From positions 1 through 43,554 of the forward strand of contig CALZIK010000042.1 in assembly GCA_945787635.1 (NCBI GenBank): a stretch of 43,554 nt of DNA, in the 5' to 3' direction. Under the pieces are notes generated by a model. It searched no databases, was not told the origin of the DNA, and worked only from the letters and a program-made list of their open reading frames with translations. Below, piece by piece: positions 23,639 through 29,926 of the stretch; the stretch's first letter is position 1, and the number at the start of each line of letters is the position of its first letter. Both the position numbers and the translations under genes were made by a program. The stretch is from Thermoanaerobaculia bacterium (GTDB lineage: Bacteria; Acidobacteriota; Thermoanaerobaculia; Multivoradales; JAHEKO01).

Positions 23639-25729
23639 CTAGTCTTCGTCCGGCTGCCACGGCCCGATCGACTCGACCCTCCAGGTGTCGCGTCCGAGCT
23701 CGACCGTGTCGCCCAGTCGCTTACCGAGCAGGTTCGCGCCGGCTTCGGACTCGTAGGAGAGGATGCCGAGGTCGGGGTTGCTCTCCCAGGGACCGAGAAC
23801 CGTGATCTCGCGGCTCGAATCGGGACCGTCGGCACTCGAAAGCCGGACCGTGGCGCCGATTCGCACCTCCTGGTCGTCGATCTGGTCGAACGAGATGGGC
23901 TGCGCACGGGCCAGATCACGCTCGAGGTTGCTGACTCGGGCGGAGAGGTATTCGTGTCGCTGGCGAGCCGATTTGTACTCGAAGTTCTCGCGCAGGTCGC
24001 CGTGAGCGCGAGCCTCTTCGATCGCTTTGCGATTAGCGGGAATCTCGGCTTCCAGGAGGTTCTTGAGCTCGGCCCGTTTCTCGTCGATGACCTTGGAGGT
24101 CGCGTACAAGGAGTCCGAGACCGCCGTCGAAAGGTCCGGGAACTTCATATGCAAGGCGGTGAGCAGTCGGTCGCGGAGGTACTCTTCCAGCGGGGTTCTC
24201 TCGAACAACTCCTTGACACTCTCCGCGTGATCCGGCTCGAGTTTCTGGATCAAGGCGTGGGTGACCGCACCGTCGTCCAGGATCCGCTTGAGAGGAGCTT
24301 TGAACTTGGAGAAGTCGGGCAGGCTCTTGGCCCTCAGCAGCTGTCCCAGAGCTCGAGCCGGATTGCGATCACCGAAATACGGGCTTCCCTCGAGGTTCTG
24401 CATCAGCCAGATGAAGGCGGCGGGGCGCTTTGCGGGTTGGCTCAAGATCCGGTCGACCATCTCTTCCGCCTCCGAGCGCACCGTCGCCCAGAGCTTCTCG
24501 AACAGGAAGCTCAAGATCGGGCCGTCGGTCTCGGTGTTGAGCGTGTTGGCGTAAACCTGCGTCCAATCGTCCCGAAGCTCGGCGACTCGGGTCAGGCACA
24601 TGAGCCTCAGGTTGCGATCAGCGAGCGCTCGCGCGACGACGGTAGGGTCGCTCGCGTCGCGCAGGATCTCGTCGATGTCGAACGGAACGTCGATCTTCAG
24701 TCCTGATCTGTCGAGGGCCGAGAGGATGCGGATGGCGACACTCGGCTTGGTGTTTCTTTGTTCGATCGCGGCCTCGACCAGAAGGCCGGCGAGCTCAGCG
24801 GCCGTTTCGGGATTGCGCTTGCTCTCCCGTTGGAGGATTTCGAGTTTCTGCCCCAGGGCCGCTTTCTGGAACTGGGCGCGAACCTCTTCGCCCGCCGCCG
24901 CGGTGCTTTCTGCCCAACTGTAGGCTTGTCTGGTGCCCTTGCCGGAGGACACCAGCTGCGGATGGGCGCGAGCGCGCGACCACCAAGAGGTCCAGCTCTT
25001 GTCTGAGATCAGGCCGCTGACGGAAGCCTTGATCTCAGTGGCGGTCTGACCTGGTTGGCTGGAGAGCATCAAGCGCAGCAGATCGGGAGGGTCGGACTCG
25101 GCGAGGGACCGAAGCTCGTCCGGCTTTTCGATCTTTCGCCGCAGGAAATGGTCTCTTTCCAACGGCTCGAGCACCTTGCTCGCGGCCCCAAAGCCGATGC
25201 TCAGCCCGGGATGGTTTTCGAAATCAACCTTGAGCTTCTCGAGCTCGACGTTGACCTCGACCACCCGTCCGACCCCCTTGCCCTCCATCGAGACGATGGA
25301 ACCGACGTCGTAGGCCAGCACACCGCGCAGGCGTCTGACTCGCTGCCAGATCTTGGCCACGTCGTCGGTCGCCTTGCGCAGCCCCAGCCGTTCGATCATG
25401 ACCTCGACGACTTGGCTGTCGGAATACACCTGGTTGAGCGTGGCGATGACCTCCTCGTTCAAGGTCTCGGCGGCGAAGGAAATCTCTCCGGTGGATTCGA
25501 GCAGCCTCAGCCGGTCTTCCCAGAGCGCCTCCGAGCGCAGCTCTTCGTCCAGCAGTTCGAGCAGTTGCCGAGCGACGTTGGTGCCGCCACTCGCGGCGAG
25601 AGCGCGCGCCGCGGTCGAAAAGAAATTTAGGTCGAGCGGAGCCTCGCCCAGGCGGGTCAGCCATTCGTCCTCGACGGCTTCGAAGTTCTGGGCCTCGATG
25701 TGTTTTCTGGTGGTTCTCGGGAGGCTCAT
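23639..25729 (-). CDS. GreA/GreB-domain protein with long N-terminal extension
   Basis: 696 residues. The last 160 form a complete GreA-type transcript-cleavage factor: coiled coil 'AEIPANRKAIEEARAHGDLR' with the acidic tip 'HGDLRENFEY' (Asp578, Glu581), then an FKBP-like domain 'VRIGATVRLSS' to 'LGKRLGDTVEL'. Ordinary GreA is about 158 residues. The roughly 535-residue N-terminal part is helical with repeated leucine patterns ('MLSSQPGQTATEIKASVSGL', 'IRILSALDRSGLKI') and holds a small beta domain 'VGSIVSMEGKGVGRVVEVN'. A similarly long GreA is known in Chlamydiae. Start ATG 25729 ('MSLPRTTRKH'). Convergent with the anti-sigma gene. Confidence 0.85.
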   Translation of the reverse strand: MSLPRTTRKHIEAQNFEAVEDEWLTRLGEAPLDLNFFSTAARALAASGGTNVARQLLELLDEELRSEALWEDRLRLLESTGEISFAAETLNEEVIATLNQVYSDSQVVEVMIERLGLRKATDDVAKIWQRVRRLRGVLAYDVGSIVSMEGKGVGRVVEVNVELEKLKVDFENHPGLSIGFGAASKVLEPLERDHFLRRKIEKPDELRSLAESDPPDLLRLMLSSQPGQTATEIKASVSGLISDKSWTSWWSRARAHPQLVSSGKGTRQAYSWAESTAAAGEEVRAQFQKAALGQKLEILQRESKRNPETAAELAGLLVEAAIEQRNTKPSVAIRILSALDRSGLKIDVPFDIDEILRDASDPTVVARALADRNLRLMCLTRVAELRDDWTQVYANTLNTETDGPILSFLFEKLWATVRSEAEEMVDRILSQPAKRPAAFIWLMQNLEGSPYFGDRNPARALGQLLRAKSLPDFSKFKAPLKRILDDGAVTHALIQKLEPDHAESVKELFERTPLEEYLRDRLLTALHMKFPDLSTAVSDSLYATSKVIDEKRAELKNLLEAEIPANRKAIEEARAHGDLRENFEYKSARQRHEYLSARVSNLERDLARAQPISFDQIDDQEVRIGATVRLSSADGPDSSREITVLGPWESNPDLGILSYESEAGANLLGKRLGDTVELGRDTWRVESIGPWQPDED

Positions 25730-25770: not shown

Positions 25771-26565
25771 ATGGATCCTGCACGTCGCGCTCAGCTGACC
25801 GCCCGGCTCCGGGACTGTGGCGAGCAGGAGCTAGTGGAGTTGCTGCAAGCTGAGCTCGAGCATCTCGACGCCGAGGTGGTGAGGACCGCTCTGCGGAGCC
25901 CGTACGCATCCGCCCGGGTGATCGAACTGATCCTGGGTGAGCGCCGGCTGCTCTCGTCCCATGAGGTTCAGAAGGCGCTCGTCGAGCATCCGCGGACTCC
26001 CGAGCCGCGAGTGCTCAACCTGGTGCCCAGCCTCTACTGGCGCGATCTGGTCGAGCTCGGCGGCAACACGCGGATTCGGCCGCGGGTGCGCAAGGCCGCC
26101 GACCGGCGGCTCGCAGAGCGCCTGCCGAGGCTCGGAATCGGAGAGCGAATCGCGATCGCCCGCAAGGCCGGTCCGGGGCTGATCGCCCGTCTTCTGCTCG
26201 ATCCCAATCTTCGCGTGATCGACGCTCTCTTGGACAACTCCAGGATGACCGAGGGCTTGCTCGCGCCATTGCTCTATTCCGATCGGGCCCGACCCGGGGT
26301 GCTGGCGCGGATTGCCGAGAATCGCAAGTGGGGAAGGCGCTATCCGATTCGAGCCGCGATCGCGCGCAATCCGGCGACCGCGGCTGCGACCGCTCTCGAG
26401 CTGCTTGCTTTTCTCAAGAAAGCCGATTTGCGGGAGGTGCGCGCCGACCCACGGATCGATATGTCAGTGCGCCGCCGTGCCGGGTTGCTGCTCGGTATCG
26501 ATCCTGGCGCTTGGCCGGGCGCCGGGTCAAGCGCCGAAGAGAACGTTGGATCGGAAACCGACTAG
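25771..26565 (+). CDS. HEAT-like helical repeat protein, unknown function
   Basis: 264 residues, no signal peptide or span. It is built of degenerate helical repeats of about 45-50 residues. The repeated pattern is seen in 'ALVEHPRTPEPRVLNLVPSL' with 'YWRDLVELGGNT', and again in 'AIARNPATAAATALELLAFL' with 'KKADLREVRADP'. Each ends in 'VRxxAxxxL'. The C-terminal 100 residues are homologous to the end of the protein at 27453-28481 ('LARIAENRKWGRRYPIRAAI' against 'LDTIAKNRSWIRKYSIMFAL'). Such repeats usually bind proteins. Divergent from the GreA-like gene with a 41-base gap. Confidence 0.75.
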   Translation: MDPARRAQLTARLRDCGEQELVELLQAELEHLDAEVVRTALRSPYASARVIELILGERRLLSSHEVQKALVEHPRTPEPRVLNLVPSLYWRDLVELGGNTRIRPRVRKAADRRLAERLPRLGIGERIAIARKAGPGLIARLLLDPNLRVIDALLDNSRMTEGLLAPLLYSDRARPGVLARIAENRKWGRRYPIRAAIARNPATAAATALELLAFLKKADLREVRADPRIDMSVRRRAGLLLGIDPGAWPGAGSSAEENVGSETD

Positions 26566-26585
26566 AACCCTGCACCGGACCTGAT

Positions 26586-26614
26586 TTGACCGCTTCGCTG
26601 GCCGCCAATAGAGT
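26586..26614 (+). promoter_or_regulatory. Promoter of the RodZ-like gene cluster
   Basis: TTGACC at 26586-26591 and TAGAGT at 26609-26614 with a 17-base spacer. It places transcription start near 26620, which excludes the TTG at 26614 as translation start and favours the GTG at 26665. Confidence 0.5.
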
Positions 26615-26664
26615 TGAAACTCACCTTTGGGCTCCGATCCGTTCGTAATCCAAGCAGTCTCTCA

Positions 26665-27456
26665 GTGAACGCAACCAACAACCGCCAGCCTCCATGGGAG
26701 GAAGAGCAGAATCGCGACGCCGCGAGCTTCGGTTCTTGGTTGAGGAGTCAGCGCAAGATCCGTGAGGTGCCGCTGCGGGAGATCTCGGACGCCACCAAGA
26801 TCAGTATCCGCTACCTGGAGGCCCTCGAAGAGGACCGCTTCGACGTTCTGCCGGCGCCGGTATTCGCCAAGGGCTTCCTGCGCGAGTACGCTAAGTTCGT
26901 CGGCCTCGACTCGGACGAGGTGGTCAACTCGTATCTCAACGCCCTCCAGGCTTCTGAGGATGTGGAGGAAGAGCGCGCGGATGTCCGGGTCTCGCGGCCC
27001 GACAAGGAGAGTCGAAACAGCTGGGTCCTGATTGTCGCGCTGCTGGTCGCTCTGGCGTTGATCGCCTTTCTGATCTACTGGGGAGGAAGCGACGGTCCGG
27101 AAGATGTGGCCGTGCCCGCGATTGCGGCGCCTGTCCTGCCGCCCCGTCCGCCGTTGCCCGAGCCCGAACAAGAGAAGGTCGAGACCGCTCCGCTGGTAGT
27201 GACCATGGATTTCACCGAGGACTGCTGGGTGGAGGCGTCGGTTGACGGCCGGCGCCGGATCAGCGAGTTGCACGTGCAAGGCGAATCGATGCGGCTCGAA
27301 GCCAATCAAGAGGTGCGGTTGACGCTCGGCAACCCGGGGGGAGTCCGAGTCGAAGTCAACGGCGTGCAGTACGAGCTGTCGATTCCGTCCGGCGGCATGG
27401 CCCGCGACATTGTCATCGACTTGAGCGATCTGGCTCCGGAAGCCCCGGCTCAATGA
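26665..27456 (+). CDS. RodZ-like HTH membrane protein
   Basis: 263 residues from GTG 26665. The N-terminal HTH_25 domain is 'FGSWLRSQRKIREVPLREIS', 'DATKISIRYLEALEEDRF' and 'LPAPVFAKGFLREYAKFVGL' (22-90). One membrane span lies at 119-139 ('WVLIVALLVALALIAFLIYW'), then a proline-rich linker and a C-terminal DUF4115-type beta domain ('DCWVEASVDGRRRISELHVQ' and on). RodZ links MreB to the envelope in rod-shaped bacteria; no mre genes are in the window, so this may be a paralogue. A candidate promoter at 26586-26614 supports the chosen start. The stop overlaps the next gene's ATG (ATGA). Confidence 0.85.
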   Translation: MNATNNRQPPWEEEQNRDAASFGSWLRSQRKIREVPLREISDATKISIRYLEALEEDRFDVLPAPVFAKGFLREYAKFVGLDSDEVVNSYLNALQASEDVEEERADVRVSRPDKESRNSWVLIVALLVALALIAFLIYWGGSDGPEDVAVPAIAAPVLPPRPPLPEPEQEKVETAPLVVTMDFTEDCWVEASVDGRRRISELHVQGESMRLEANQEVRLTLGNPGGVRVEVNGVQYELSIPSGGMARDIVIDLSDLAPEAPAQ

Positions 27457-28481
27457 CTGAGCGATCCTTCGAGGAGCTGGCTCGAGAGATCCTCCAAGGC
27501 GGCCAGGAGGCGAAGCTCCTGGCGGCCGGTGGCATGCTGCCGGTGGCCCCAGCGGAGCTGATTCCTCTTCAAGTCCGCCTGGCGGCGGCGCCGGAGCAGG
27601 AGGTGGCAACCAAGGCCGCTGAGTCACTGGCTGCCTTGGAGCCCAAGATCGCGGTCGCCCTGGTGGAGGACGGTACCGCGCCCGAAGTGCTGGCCTACTT
27701 TGCGCGCAATCTGCGTCACCCGTTGGTGCTCGAGGCGATCGTCAGGCGCAGGACGACACCGGTCGAAGTGTTGAGTGAATTGGCGGCCCTGGTCGAGCCT
27801 GAGATCCAAGAGATTCTCCTGCTCAGGCAGGACATGATCGTCGAGTATCCGGAGATCCTGGTCGAGCTTGAAAAGAACCCGAGTGCGACGGCCTACACCA
27901 AGCGCCGCATCAACGAATACCGAGAGCACCTTCTACCGCGGGAGAAACGGCCTCACAGGTCACGGGCGGAGCTCGAAGAAGCCGCCGACTCCATTTCCGA
28001 CGAGGAGCTCGTTGAAGCCATCGAGGAGGTACGTGAAGCAGTCGTCGCGGAAGGCGAGAAGGACGAGACCATCGGTCTCACCGAATCGCAAATCCGAACC
28101 TTGCCGATACCGGTTCGGTTAAAGTTGACCAGGGGAGCCTCGAAGGCGCTTCGCAACATTTTGATCAAGGATCCGAACCCGATGGTTGCGACGTCGGTGC
28201 TTCGCAACAACCCTATGAACGAGTTGGAGGTCGAGCACATCGCGAACAATCGGGCCGTGATATTCGAGGTCCTGGACACGATCGCCAAGAACCGGAGCTG
28301 GATTCGCAAGTATTCGATTATGTTTGCCCTGGTCAAGAACCCCAGGACTCCGGCAGGTGTGGCGACACGCCTGGTGCCGCGTCTCGCGGTCCGAGACCTG
28401 CAGCAGGTCGCCAAAGACAGAAACGTGGCCAACGCGGTCCGAAGCACGGCCAAGCGGTTGTATACAATGAAGCGGATGTAA
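27453..28481 (+). CDS. HEAT-like helical repeat protein, paralogue of 25771-26565
   Basis: 342 residues. The N-terminal half has helical repeats ('MLPVAPAELIPLQVRLAAAP', 'LAYFARNLRHPLVLEAIVRR', 'EILLLRQDMIVEYPEILVEL'). A charged acidic hinge follows ('ELEEAADSISDEELVEAIEE'). The C-terminal part from about 215 is homologous to the upstream repeat protein: 'NILIKDPNPMVATSVLRNNP', 'NRSWIRKYSIMFALVKNPRT', 'RLAVRDLQQVAKDRNV'. No enzyme motif is seen; likely a scaffold. It overlaps the RodZ-like gene by four bases, so co-translation is likely. Confidence 0.75.
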   Translation: MTERSFEELAREILQGGQEAKLLAAGGMLPVAPAELIPLQVRLAAAPEQEVATKAAESLAALEPKIAVALVEDGTAPEVLAYFARNLRHPLVLEAIVRRRTTPVEVLSELAALVEPEIQEILLLRQDMIVEYPEILVELEKNPSATAYTKRRINEYREHLLPREKRPHRSRAELEEAADSISDEELVEAIEEVREAVVAEGEKDETIGLTESQIRTLPIPVRLKLTRGASKALRNILIKDPNPMVATSVLRNNPMNELEVEHIANNRAVIFEVLDTIAKNRSWIRKYSIMFALVKNPRTPAGVATRLVPRLAVRDLQQVAKDRNVANAVRSTAKRLYTMKRM

Positions 28482-28520
28482 GCGCGGATTTGAGTTGTTC
28501 TCGAGGAGAGTAGAAGAAGG

Positions 28521-29141
28521 ATGGCGAAAGACTATTACGCCGTTCTGGGAGTGGCCCAGAACTCGACGGAGAAGCAGATTCGTCAGCGGTTTCTCGAGCT
28601 GGCTCGGGAAAGGCATCCGGATCGTTTTCGTGGAGACGATAAAGACCGGGCCGAAAGCGAGTTTCAGGAGATCACCCAGGCCTTCAACGTCCTGACCGAC
28701 CGGGACCGGCGCAGGCAGCTCGATCTCGAGCTCACGCGGCCGTCTCAGACTCAACAGGGCAGCTCGGAAGAGGCGGCCAAGGTCTACGTCACCAGGGGCC
28801 TGGAGGCGCTGCGCGCGAATGACGTCAACCAGGCCATTCAGAGTCTCGAGCGGGCGACGCGAGAGGATCCGGACAGCGGTAAGGCGTGGTATCACCTGGG
28901 ACTGGCGTCCCAGAAGCGCCCCGGCGGCAGCGGCCGGGCTCGGGCCGCGCTCGCCAAGGCCTGCGAGCTCGAGCCGATGAATGCCGCGTATCTCAAGGAG
29001 GCCGCCAAGGCGTTCGATGAAGGCGGCATGTACGCGGAAGCAGCAAAGCTCTACAAGGAAGCTCTCGACTGGGGTGGAGAGGATGCCGAGCTGCGTGCCG
29101 CGTTTCAGACCGCTCTACGTTTGGCGAAATCGACCGGTTGA
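28521..29141 (+). CDS. J-domain protein with TPR repeats
   Basis: 206 residues. The N-terminal J-domain is complete: 'DYYAVLGVAQNSTEKQIRQR' and the HPD tripeptide at 32-34 in 'RERHPDRF', so it should stimulate a DnaK. It has no Gly/Phe or zinc-finger region, so it is a type III (class C) J-protein. From about residue 85 there are two or three TPR-like units ('YVTRGLEALRANDVNQAIQS', 'AWYHLGLASQKRPGGSGRAR', 'EAAKAFDEGGMYAEAAKLYK'). AGAAGG sits just before the ATG. The TGA overlaps the TTG start of the phosphatase gene. Confidence 0.88.
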   Translation: MAKDYYAVLGVAQNSTEKQIRQRFLELARERHPDRFRGDDKDRAESEFQEITQAFNVLTDRDRRRQLDLELTRPSQTQQGSSEEAAKVYVTRGLEALRANDVNQAIQSLERATREDPDSGKAWYHLGLASQKRPGGSGRARAALAKACELEPMNAAYLKEAAKAFDEGGMYAEAAKLYKEALDWGGEDAELRAAFQTALRLAKSTG

Positions 29142-29926
29142 GCCGCTTGCCTCTTCACGCTTCAGCCTGCGCACGCTCTGACGTCGGCAGGTCCCGATCG
29201 AATAATGAGGACTATTTCGCCGTGCGGCCCGAGCTCAGCCTCTACGTGGTCGCCGACGGGATGGGAGGCCATGGCAACGGCGAGGTCGCATCTCGCCTGG
29301 CGGCACTTTCCGTGTGCGACAGCATCGAGACCCTGCCCGCCAAGTCGGGACGCAAGCCGGCGCTTTCGCCGCCGTCGAACGAGTTACGCAGAGCCCTGGA
29401 GGCGGCGAACCGAGCGGTGTTCAATGCGGTCGAGAAGAACGATGCCCTTTCCGGAATGGGCGCCACCATGGTCGCCATGATGTTCGCCGGATCGACCGCC
29501 GCGATCGCTCATGTGGGCGACAGCCGGGCCTACCGGTACCGCGATGGCGACCTGGAGCGTCTCACCGAAGATCACACCTGGGTGGGGCAGCAGGTCTCCG
29601 CCGGCGAGCTCTCGGCGGATGAAGCCCGAAGCCATCCGTTCCGCAACGTGGTGACTCGCGCACTCGGTGGGGAAGCCCAGCTCGAAGTCGAGCTGGGCTC
29701 CTACGACGTCACGGTAGGCGACTTGTTCTTGCTGTGCAGCGACGGCCTGACCGCTGTGCTGGACGACGAGGAGATCGCCGAGTGCCTGACCAGGCATCTG
29801 GCCGGGCAGGCGGAAAGTACCGGAGCGCTTGACTTCGTCTGCACATCGTTGATCGCCGCGGCCAACGACGGCGGCGGGCCGGACAACATCACGGTCGTCG
29901 CCGTCAGCTTCACCGAATCCGACTGA
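29138..29926 (+). CDS. PP2C-type serine/threonine phosphatase
   Basis: 262 residues, the usual size of bacterial Stp/PrpC. The metal-binding motifs are all visible: 'SDVGRSRSNNEDYF' (14-27), 'VVADGMGGHGNGE' (38-50), 'SGMGATMVAMMF', 'HVGDSRAYRYRDG', 'FLLCSDGLTAVLDDEEI' and 'GGPDNITVVAVSF'. It removes phosphate from Ser/Thr residues of proteins, usually opposing a Hanks-type kinase, but no such kinase is in the window. The TTG start overlaps the stop of the J-domain gene. It closes the plus-strand cluster beginning at 26665. Confidence 0.92.
   Translation: MSRLPLHASACARSDVGRSRSNNEDYFAVRPELSLYVVADGMGGHGNGEVASRLAALSVCDSIETLPAKSGRKPALSPPSNELRRALEAANRAVFNAVEKNDALSGMGATMVAMMFAGSTAAIAHVGDSRAYRYRDGDLERLTEDHTWVGQQVSAGELSADEARSHPFRNVVTRALGGEAQLEVELGSYDVTVGDLFLLCSDGLTAVLDDEEIAECLTRHLAGQAESTGALDFVCTSLIAAANDGGGPDNITVVAVSFTESD

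Follow-up and report, generated by a model that had tools for sequence, protein, structure and literature searches.

A Conserved Acidobacterial Gene Cluster Linking RodZ and Paralogous Solenoid Proteins to a Stp1-Type PP2C Phosphatase

Gene Organization of the Locus

The window analyzed here is a stretch of 43,554 nucleotides from a Thermoanaerobaculia bacterium of the phylum Acidobacteriota (contig CALZIK010000042.1 of assembly GCA_945787635.1; genome of 4.36 Mb). Open reading frame calling in the window located five plus-strand genes between positions 25771 and 29926, in the order gene A, rodZ, gene B, a J/TPR gene and a PP2C phosphatase gene (Table 1). rodZ and B overlap by 4 bp (ATGA), as do the J/TPR and PP2C genes (TTGA), while gaps of 48 bp and 39 bp separate A from rodZ and B from the J/TPR gene, respectively. 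The start of rodZ is ambiguous (TTG at 26614 or GTG at 26666). The overlapping or nearly touching same-strand genes that a first-pass annotation, made from the letters of this DNA, had described were thus confirmed at these coordinates. In addition, three promoter-like sites were found in the region, with 0.6 being expected. The match directly upstream of rodZ may possibly provide a second transcription start for the rodZ-B-J-PP unit.

Table 1. Coordinates of the cluster genes and adjoining features in the window.
Feature	Position	Strand	Description
Gene A	25771-26565	+	264 aa; predicted all-helical solenoid (LRV/HEAT/ARM-like); paralogue of B; part shared with B 26128-26484
rodZ	26614-27456	+	HTH_25 26740-26922; predicted membrane span ~27019-27075; RodZ_C 27202-27405
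Gene B	27453-28481	+	342 aa; predicted all-helical solenoid, new family; conserved C-terminal part shared with A ~28098-28454
J/TPR gene	28521-29141	+	HPD-bearing J domain 28530-28724, TPR repeats after it
PP2C gene	29138-29926	+	Stp1/IreP-type Ser/Thr phosphatase with metal-binding motifs
Sigma-70-like promoter match, weak	26586-26614	+	5' of rodZ; consensus match only
GreA/GreB-domain fusion gene	23639-25729	-	Divergent neighbour outside the module; start probably 25729

RodZ and the Paralogous Proteins A and B

The rodZ product matched HTH_25 (PF13413; 8.4e-23) and RodZ_C (PF13464; 1.1e-16), and its HTH part matched RodZ as crystallised in complex with MreB (2wus_R; E 3.9e-6). One strongly hydrophobic segment of 19 residues starts at residue 136 (mean 3.0). 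Judged by these features, the protein is a RodZ with a predicted topology of a cytoplasmic HTH_25 domain, a single membrane span and a periplasmic RodZ_C domain. RodZ proteins studied elsewhere bind MreB and cross the membrane once. The RodZ of the window is the sole HTH_25 protein found in this genome and corresponds to the membrane HTH protein of the first-pass annotation. mreB is encoded elsewhere in the genome, on another contig.

Over 119 aa, proteins A and B are 34% identical (E 4e-10), and profile-profile comparison aligned their C-terminal halves with a probability of 99.2 (E 1.6e-19). On this sequence evidence the two are paralogues, with the shared part in the C-terminal half of each. 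The A and B proteins of the window matched nothing in Pfam or among the NCBI families above the cut-offs, and the B/A family is absent from both Pfam and NCBIfam. B did not reach the gathering score of the HEAT repeat family PF13646; weak HEAT_2 matches occurred in 11 of 34 orthologues, and the closest score, obtained for a distant orthologue, was 27.0 of the 27.7 bits needed. Similarly, A did not reach the gathering score of the LRV family PF01816; of its 33 orthologues, 6 gave E values of at most 0.1, the best being 1.3e-5.

AlphaFold2 models with a pLDDT of 94.6 for A and 92.2 for B contained helices only, and according to these models both proteins adopt an alpha-solenoid fold, i.e., an all-helical repeat superhelix, which makes them helical-repeat scaffolds. 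The best matches among solved structures were ARM, HEAT, PUF and LRV solenoids, none of which was outstanding. Foldseek TM-scores were about 0.2-0.3, as for generic solenoids. VIA-align gave a best Z of 7.5 for B, in an alignment restricted to residues 1-168, and a best Z of 8.7 at a root-mean-square deviation of 13.6 for A, for which the LRV structure 1lrv (Z 7.3) was tied with other solenoids. Comparison of the A and B profiles with the sequences of solved structures yielded nothing usable. Since all matches were to generic solenoids, no specific function was read from the structures of A and B. Thus, the two homologous helical scaffolds that had been proposed were found as such, and the label "HEAT-like" holds for the fold class and fails for the family.

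Gene A was missing from four of the 40 loci compared within the order (L042, L054, L057 and L072) and is therefore dispensable. A third, stand-alone A/B-like protein is encoded in many genomes of the order (L210-L219). Its neighbours are not conserved, and therefore it offered no functional clue.

The PP2C Phosphatase and the Variable J/TPR Slot

The PP2C protein matched PP2C_2 (3.9e-18) and scored 233.9 bits against the Stp1/IreP model NF033484, the curated cut-off of which is 230. Each of its metal-binding motifs (N-E-D, DGMGG, SDG and DN) was present in 51-54 of 54 orthologues. The pairing of a Stp1/IreP phosphatase gene with that of its cognate kinase was not found for the PP2C gene of the window: none of the genes adjoining it encodes a kinase, and the 26 kinase matches in the genome lie elsewhere.

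In the J/TPR protein a DnaJ domain (PF00226; 6.6e-18) and TPR repeats were detected, and no other domain. The HPD motif was conserved in all 46 orthologues. Hsp70 is recruited by J proteins in which this motif is intact. With an HPD motif but neither the Zn domain nor the C-terminal domain of DnaJ, the protein belongs by its domain content to the class C type of J-domain co-chaperones. The slot between B and the phosphatase gene varies, however, and holds a J-TPR gene, a TPR gene without J domain, or no gene. The distance from B to the phosphatase gene fell into three classes (~50-260, 670-840 and 990-1150 bp), in keeping with an absent middle gene, a J-TPR gene of ~210 aa and a J-less TPR gene of ~310 aa, respectively; in the lineages with an empty slot the gap was 52-260 bp. 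Since the middle gene is swapped or lost across lineages while B and the phosphatase persist, the J domain is optional. The chaperone part that the first-pass annotation had included was therefore not supported as an essential one, as the J domain is missing in some lineages and the whole middle gene in others. It is the weak part of that reading, and the core of the cluster consists of RodZ, a solenoid protein and the phosphatase.

Conservation of the Cluster in the Order and the Phylum

Within the order, the gene order rodZ-B-J-PP recurred in essentially all 40 loci with flanks, one of which (L060) ends at a contig edge. In about 31 of the 40 loci, with gene starts chosen by rule, the start of B overlapped the rodZ stop, commonly by 4 bp, or lay no more than 11 bp away. 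The flanks were syntenic within the order as well (amidase, sigma/anti-sigma, GreA fusion, VWA, fadB and acyl-CoA synthetase genes), and therefore comparisons beyond the order carry more weight. Of 297 genomes sampled throughout the phylum, 198 contained B. Among 80 genomes from outside the class, 58, representing 28 of 36 families, carried a same-strand HTH_25 gene no more than 2.5 kb upstream of B. Both B and phosphatase positions were checked for 82 genomes, and in 58 of these the phosphatase gene lay at most ~1.2 kb downstream of B. This fraction is not an unbiased rate, as the genomes were picked in part since both positions were listed. B and Stp1-type PP2C proteins co-occurred across the phylum: 186 genomes had both, 12 only B, 54 only the phosphatase and 45 neither (Fisher p 3e-15).

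Slow rearrangement might have left unrelated genes adjacent, as the synteny of the flanks within the order would suggest. This explanation is very unlikely, however, because the RodZ-B and B-PP links remained outside the order, where the flanks are mostly gone, and because overlaps, tight spacing and the correlated loss described below would not be expected of unrelated genes. With RodZ-B linked in 58/80 and B-PP in 58/82 genomes, incidental clustering was rejected. The conserved order rather suggests that the cluster is ancient in Acidobacteria and was inherited vertically.

When genome contigs were scanned with B, the single protein gave no match, and an alignment retrieved 36 loci, mostly titled Acidobacteria; no relative of B was found in plasmid records. 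One contig labelled "Deltaproteobacteria bacterium" (L078; JAHZIX010000028.1) matches the locus of a member of the order (G020, contig 1) in length and coordinates; its label is probably wrong. In another locus (L176), B is followed by a PP2C gene and recA with short or overlapping junctions.

Several neighbours of the cluster were also recorded. The GreA fusion protein combines a C-terminal GreA/GreB domain with ~540-600 residues of other sequence, its nearest NCBI models being the GreA "unknown domain fusion" models PRK14720 and PRK06330. Its gene adjoins rodZ in most loci of the order and is retained in genus g11 (see below). The window also encodes an acidobacterial VWA protein (TIGR03436).

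Association with Ser/Thr Kinases

Genus g11 (family f3) belongs to the same order and is represented by nearly complete genomes. Its locus keeps the GreA fusion gene and rodZ, with NfeD and Band_7 genes replacing B, the J/TPR gene and the PP2C gene (L199, L200 and L209). Neither A nor B was found anywhere in the g11 genomes, and their PP2C proteins all scored far below the Stp1 cut-off. Full scoring revealed 0, 0, 0 and 3 Hanks-type kinases in four g11 genomes, as compared to 21, 26, 53 and 58 in four relatives from the order. The genus represents a case of near-complete kinome loss among close relatives with dozens of Hanks-type kinases. Since cluster and kinases were lost together in this genus, the cluster is probably the phosphatase arm of kinase signalling in Acidobacteria. 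Thus, the link to phospho-control that had been suggested from the gene content gained support.

The association was also seen across the phylum. In the 297 genomes, the median number of first-look kinase candidates was 21 with B and 7 without (Mann-Whitney p 5e-16). The association persisted with one value per genus (p 1e-6) and per family (p 0.006), and B-negative members had fewer kinase candidates in 12 of 13 mixed families (sign test 0.003; stratified permutation 5e-5). B-negative genomes were not smaller than B-positive ones (medians of 4.0 and 3.7 Mb), and therefore genome size does not explain the difference in kinase number.

Several points weigh against this reading or limit it. The kinase figures for the 297 genomes are numbers of candidates, with which full scoring of 12 genomes agreed, and the genomes are not independent, shared ancestry being handled only by blocking on families. 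Nineteen genomes with at least 20 kinase candidates lacked a detectable B, and the Stp1-type phosphatase occurred without B in the 54 genomes mentioned above. A divergent B may escape detection in B-negative lineages. In addition, B lay distant from both rodZ and the phosphatase gene in several families, and some of the deep lineages, among them families f36, f38 and f24, had scattered genes, although RodZ-B or secA-B may remain there. The neighbourhood comparison that the first-pass annotation had called for spoke against incidental clustering, and the scattering it had named as the adverse outcome appeared in such deep lineages only.

A Proposed RodZ-Anchored Phosphatase Module and Its Alternatives

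The reading that we favour, although tentatively and at somewhat less than even confidence, is that the genes for A, RodZ, B, the J/TPR protein and PP2C are an operon that encodes a RodZ-anchored, solenoid-scaffolded Ser/Thr phosphatase module of the Stp1 type. Catalysis would be carried out by the Stp1/IreP-type PP2C. B and its dispensable paralogue A would, like the TPR or J-TPR protein, likely serve as adaptors that hold the phosphatase and choose its substrates, and RodZ would likely be the membrane anchor or a target. We infer that the proteins form a physical complex in which B would be the adaptor and RodZ would recruit the phosphatase to the membrane, with the elongasome as the putative site of action. 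The module would counteract Hanks-type kinases at the envelope or elongation machinery. As a precedent, RodZ of B. subtilis directly binds the PP2C protein SpoIIE (PMC4945075). The localisation of B. subtilis RodZ is independent of SpoIIE phosphatase activity, however, and RodZ therefore need not be a substrate. A more far-reaching version, which we consider conceivable but unlikely, is that B and A are dedicated regulatory or scaffold subunits of PP2C, functionally analogous to the solenoid subunits that eukaryotic PP2A possesses, and that RodZ takes the holoenzyme to the MreB machinery, so that elongation of acidobacterial cells would be set by Ser/Thr dephosphorylation.

The lineages in which the cluster breaks up bear on two further explanations. 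The most widely retained pair is RodZ-B, and in family f38 (L158 and L160) rodZ and B still overlap without an adjoining J/TPR or PP2C gene. A and B might therefore be structural partners that organise RodZ-MreB patches, regulating cell shape without phospho-signalling, with the phosphatase and J genes as housekeeping genes of the same transcription unit. This is rather improbable, since the adjacency of B and the phosphatase gene outlasts loss or swap of the middle gene, and since B was lost along with phosphatase and kinases while RodZ stayed. Upstream of rodZ-B in the two f38 loci lie a MoxR-type AAA ATPase gene (AAA_3) and a sigma-54 response regulator gene, which overlap.

Alternatively, the cluster might serve the biogenesis or the assembly of RodZ: together with DnaK and the TPR/J protein, B would act as a holdase or adaptor that brings RodZ to SecA and aids its insertion or its assembly with MreB, the phosphatase being a regulator or passenger. 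B lies beside rodZ in 28 families and, away from rodZ, follows secA in five genomes of four families (f83, f36, f26 and f78; L155, L164, L165 and L177), in L164 with a TPR-similar gene between the two. The invariant HPD motif, and with it the expected recruitment of Hsp70, would also fit. Since insertion of E. coli RodZ requires SecA binding to ribosomes (review PMC5963308), the secA neighbour is of interest for this explanation. Biogenesis nevertheless appears improbable, and slightly more so than a purely structural role, because it predicts neither the linkage of B to the phosphatase nor the loss of B together with the kinases. Moreover, g11 retains RodZ at a locus without A, B, J/TPR and PP2C genes, the J domain is often absent, and family f21 has B, with no HTH_25 protein being found there. 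In f21 (L168 and L169), B is followed by genes for a 164-aa protein, an extracytoplasmic function (ECF) sigma factor, a zf-HC2 anti-sigma-like protein and a weakly bactofilin-like protein.

Significance and Comparison with Known Systems

All enzyme and domain types of the cluster are already known, whereas the B/A family and the gene combination are undescribed. In the open-licence literature, no paper was found on RodZ of Acidobacteria in such a context or on a PP2C/HEAT/RodZ system. Together with the gene order kept in essentially all 40 loci of the order and across the phylum, this agrees with the original proposal of an undescribed, conserved unit. Acidobacteriota possess many Ser/Thr kinases, and to our knowledge the opposing phosphatase arm and its targets have hardly been studied. 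A phylum-wide locus in which the gene of a Stp1-type phosphatase follows rodZ and a member of an undescribed solenoid family, and which vanishes with the kinases, provides a concrete entry point to this arm. It makes a connection of phospho-signalling to cell shape testable, and may represent a bacterial solenoid-scaffolded phosphatase.

The cluster resembles RodZ-SpoIIE of B. subtilis in that RodZ is tied to a phosphatase of the PP2C family, here by gene linkage only. SpoIIE is a sporulation-specific membrane protein that acts on SpoIIAA, whereas the cluster phosphatase is of the soluble Stp1/IreP type, and the cluster adds solenoid and TPR/J proteins. With the MreB-RodZ elongasome it shares a RodZ with HTH_25, one span and RodZ_C, although mreB is located elsewhere in the genome; we know of no solenoid, J/TPR or Stp1-type phosphatase partner described for the elongasome. 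A and B resemble HEAT and LRV alpha-solenoids (PF13646 and PF01816) as predicted all-helical repeat superhelices, but they reached no Pfam cut-off and their structure matches were generic. The eukaryotic PP2A scaffold PR65 is proposed as an analogy for phosphatase scaffolding, and no homology to it is claimed. Finally, the Stp1/IreP-PASTA kinase pairs PrkC-PrpC, StkP-PhpP and Stk-Stp employ phosphatases of the same PP2C family (NF033484) that oppose Hanks kinases. In these pairs the phosphatase gene usually lies beside that of its kinase, whereas the cluster includes no kinase gene and places the phosphatase gene with rodZ and B.

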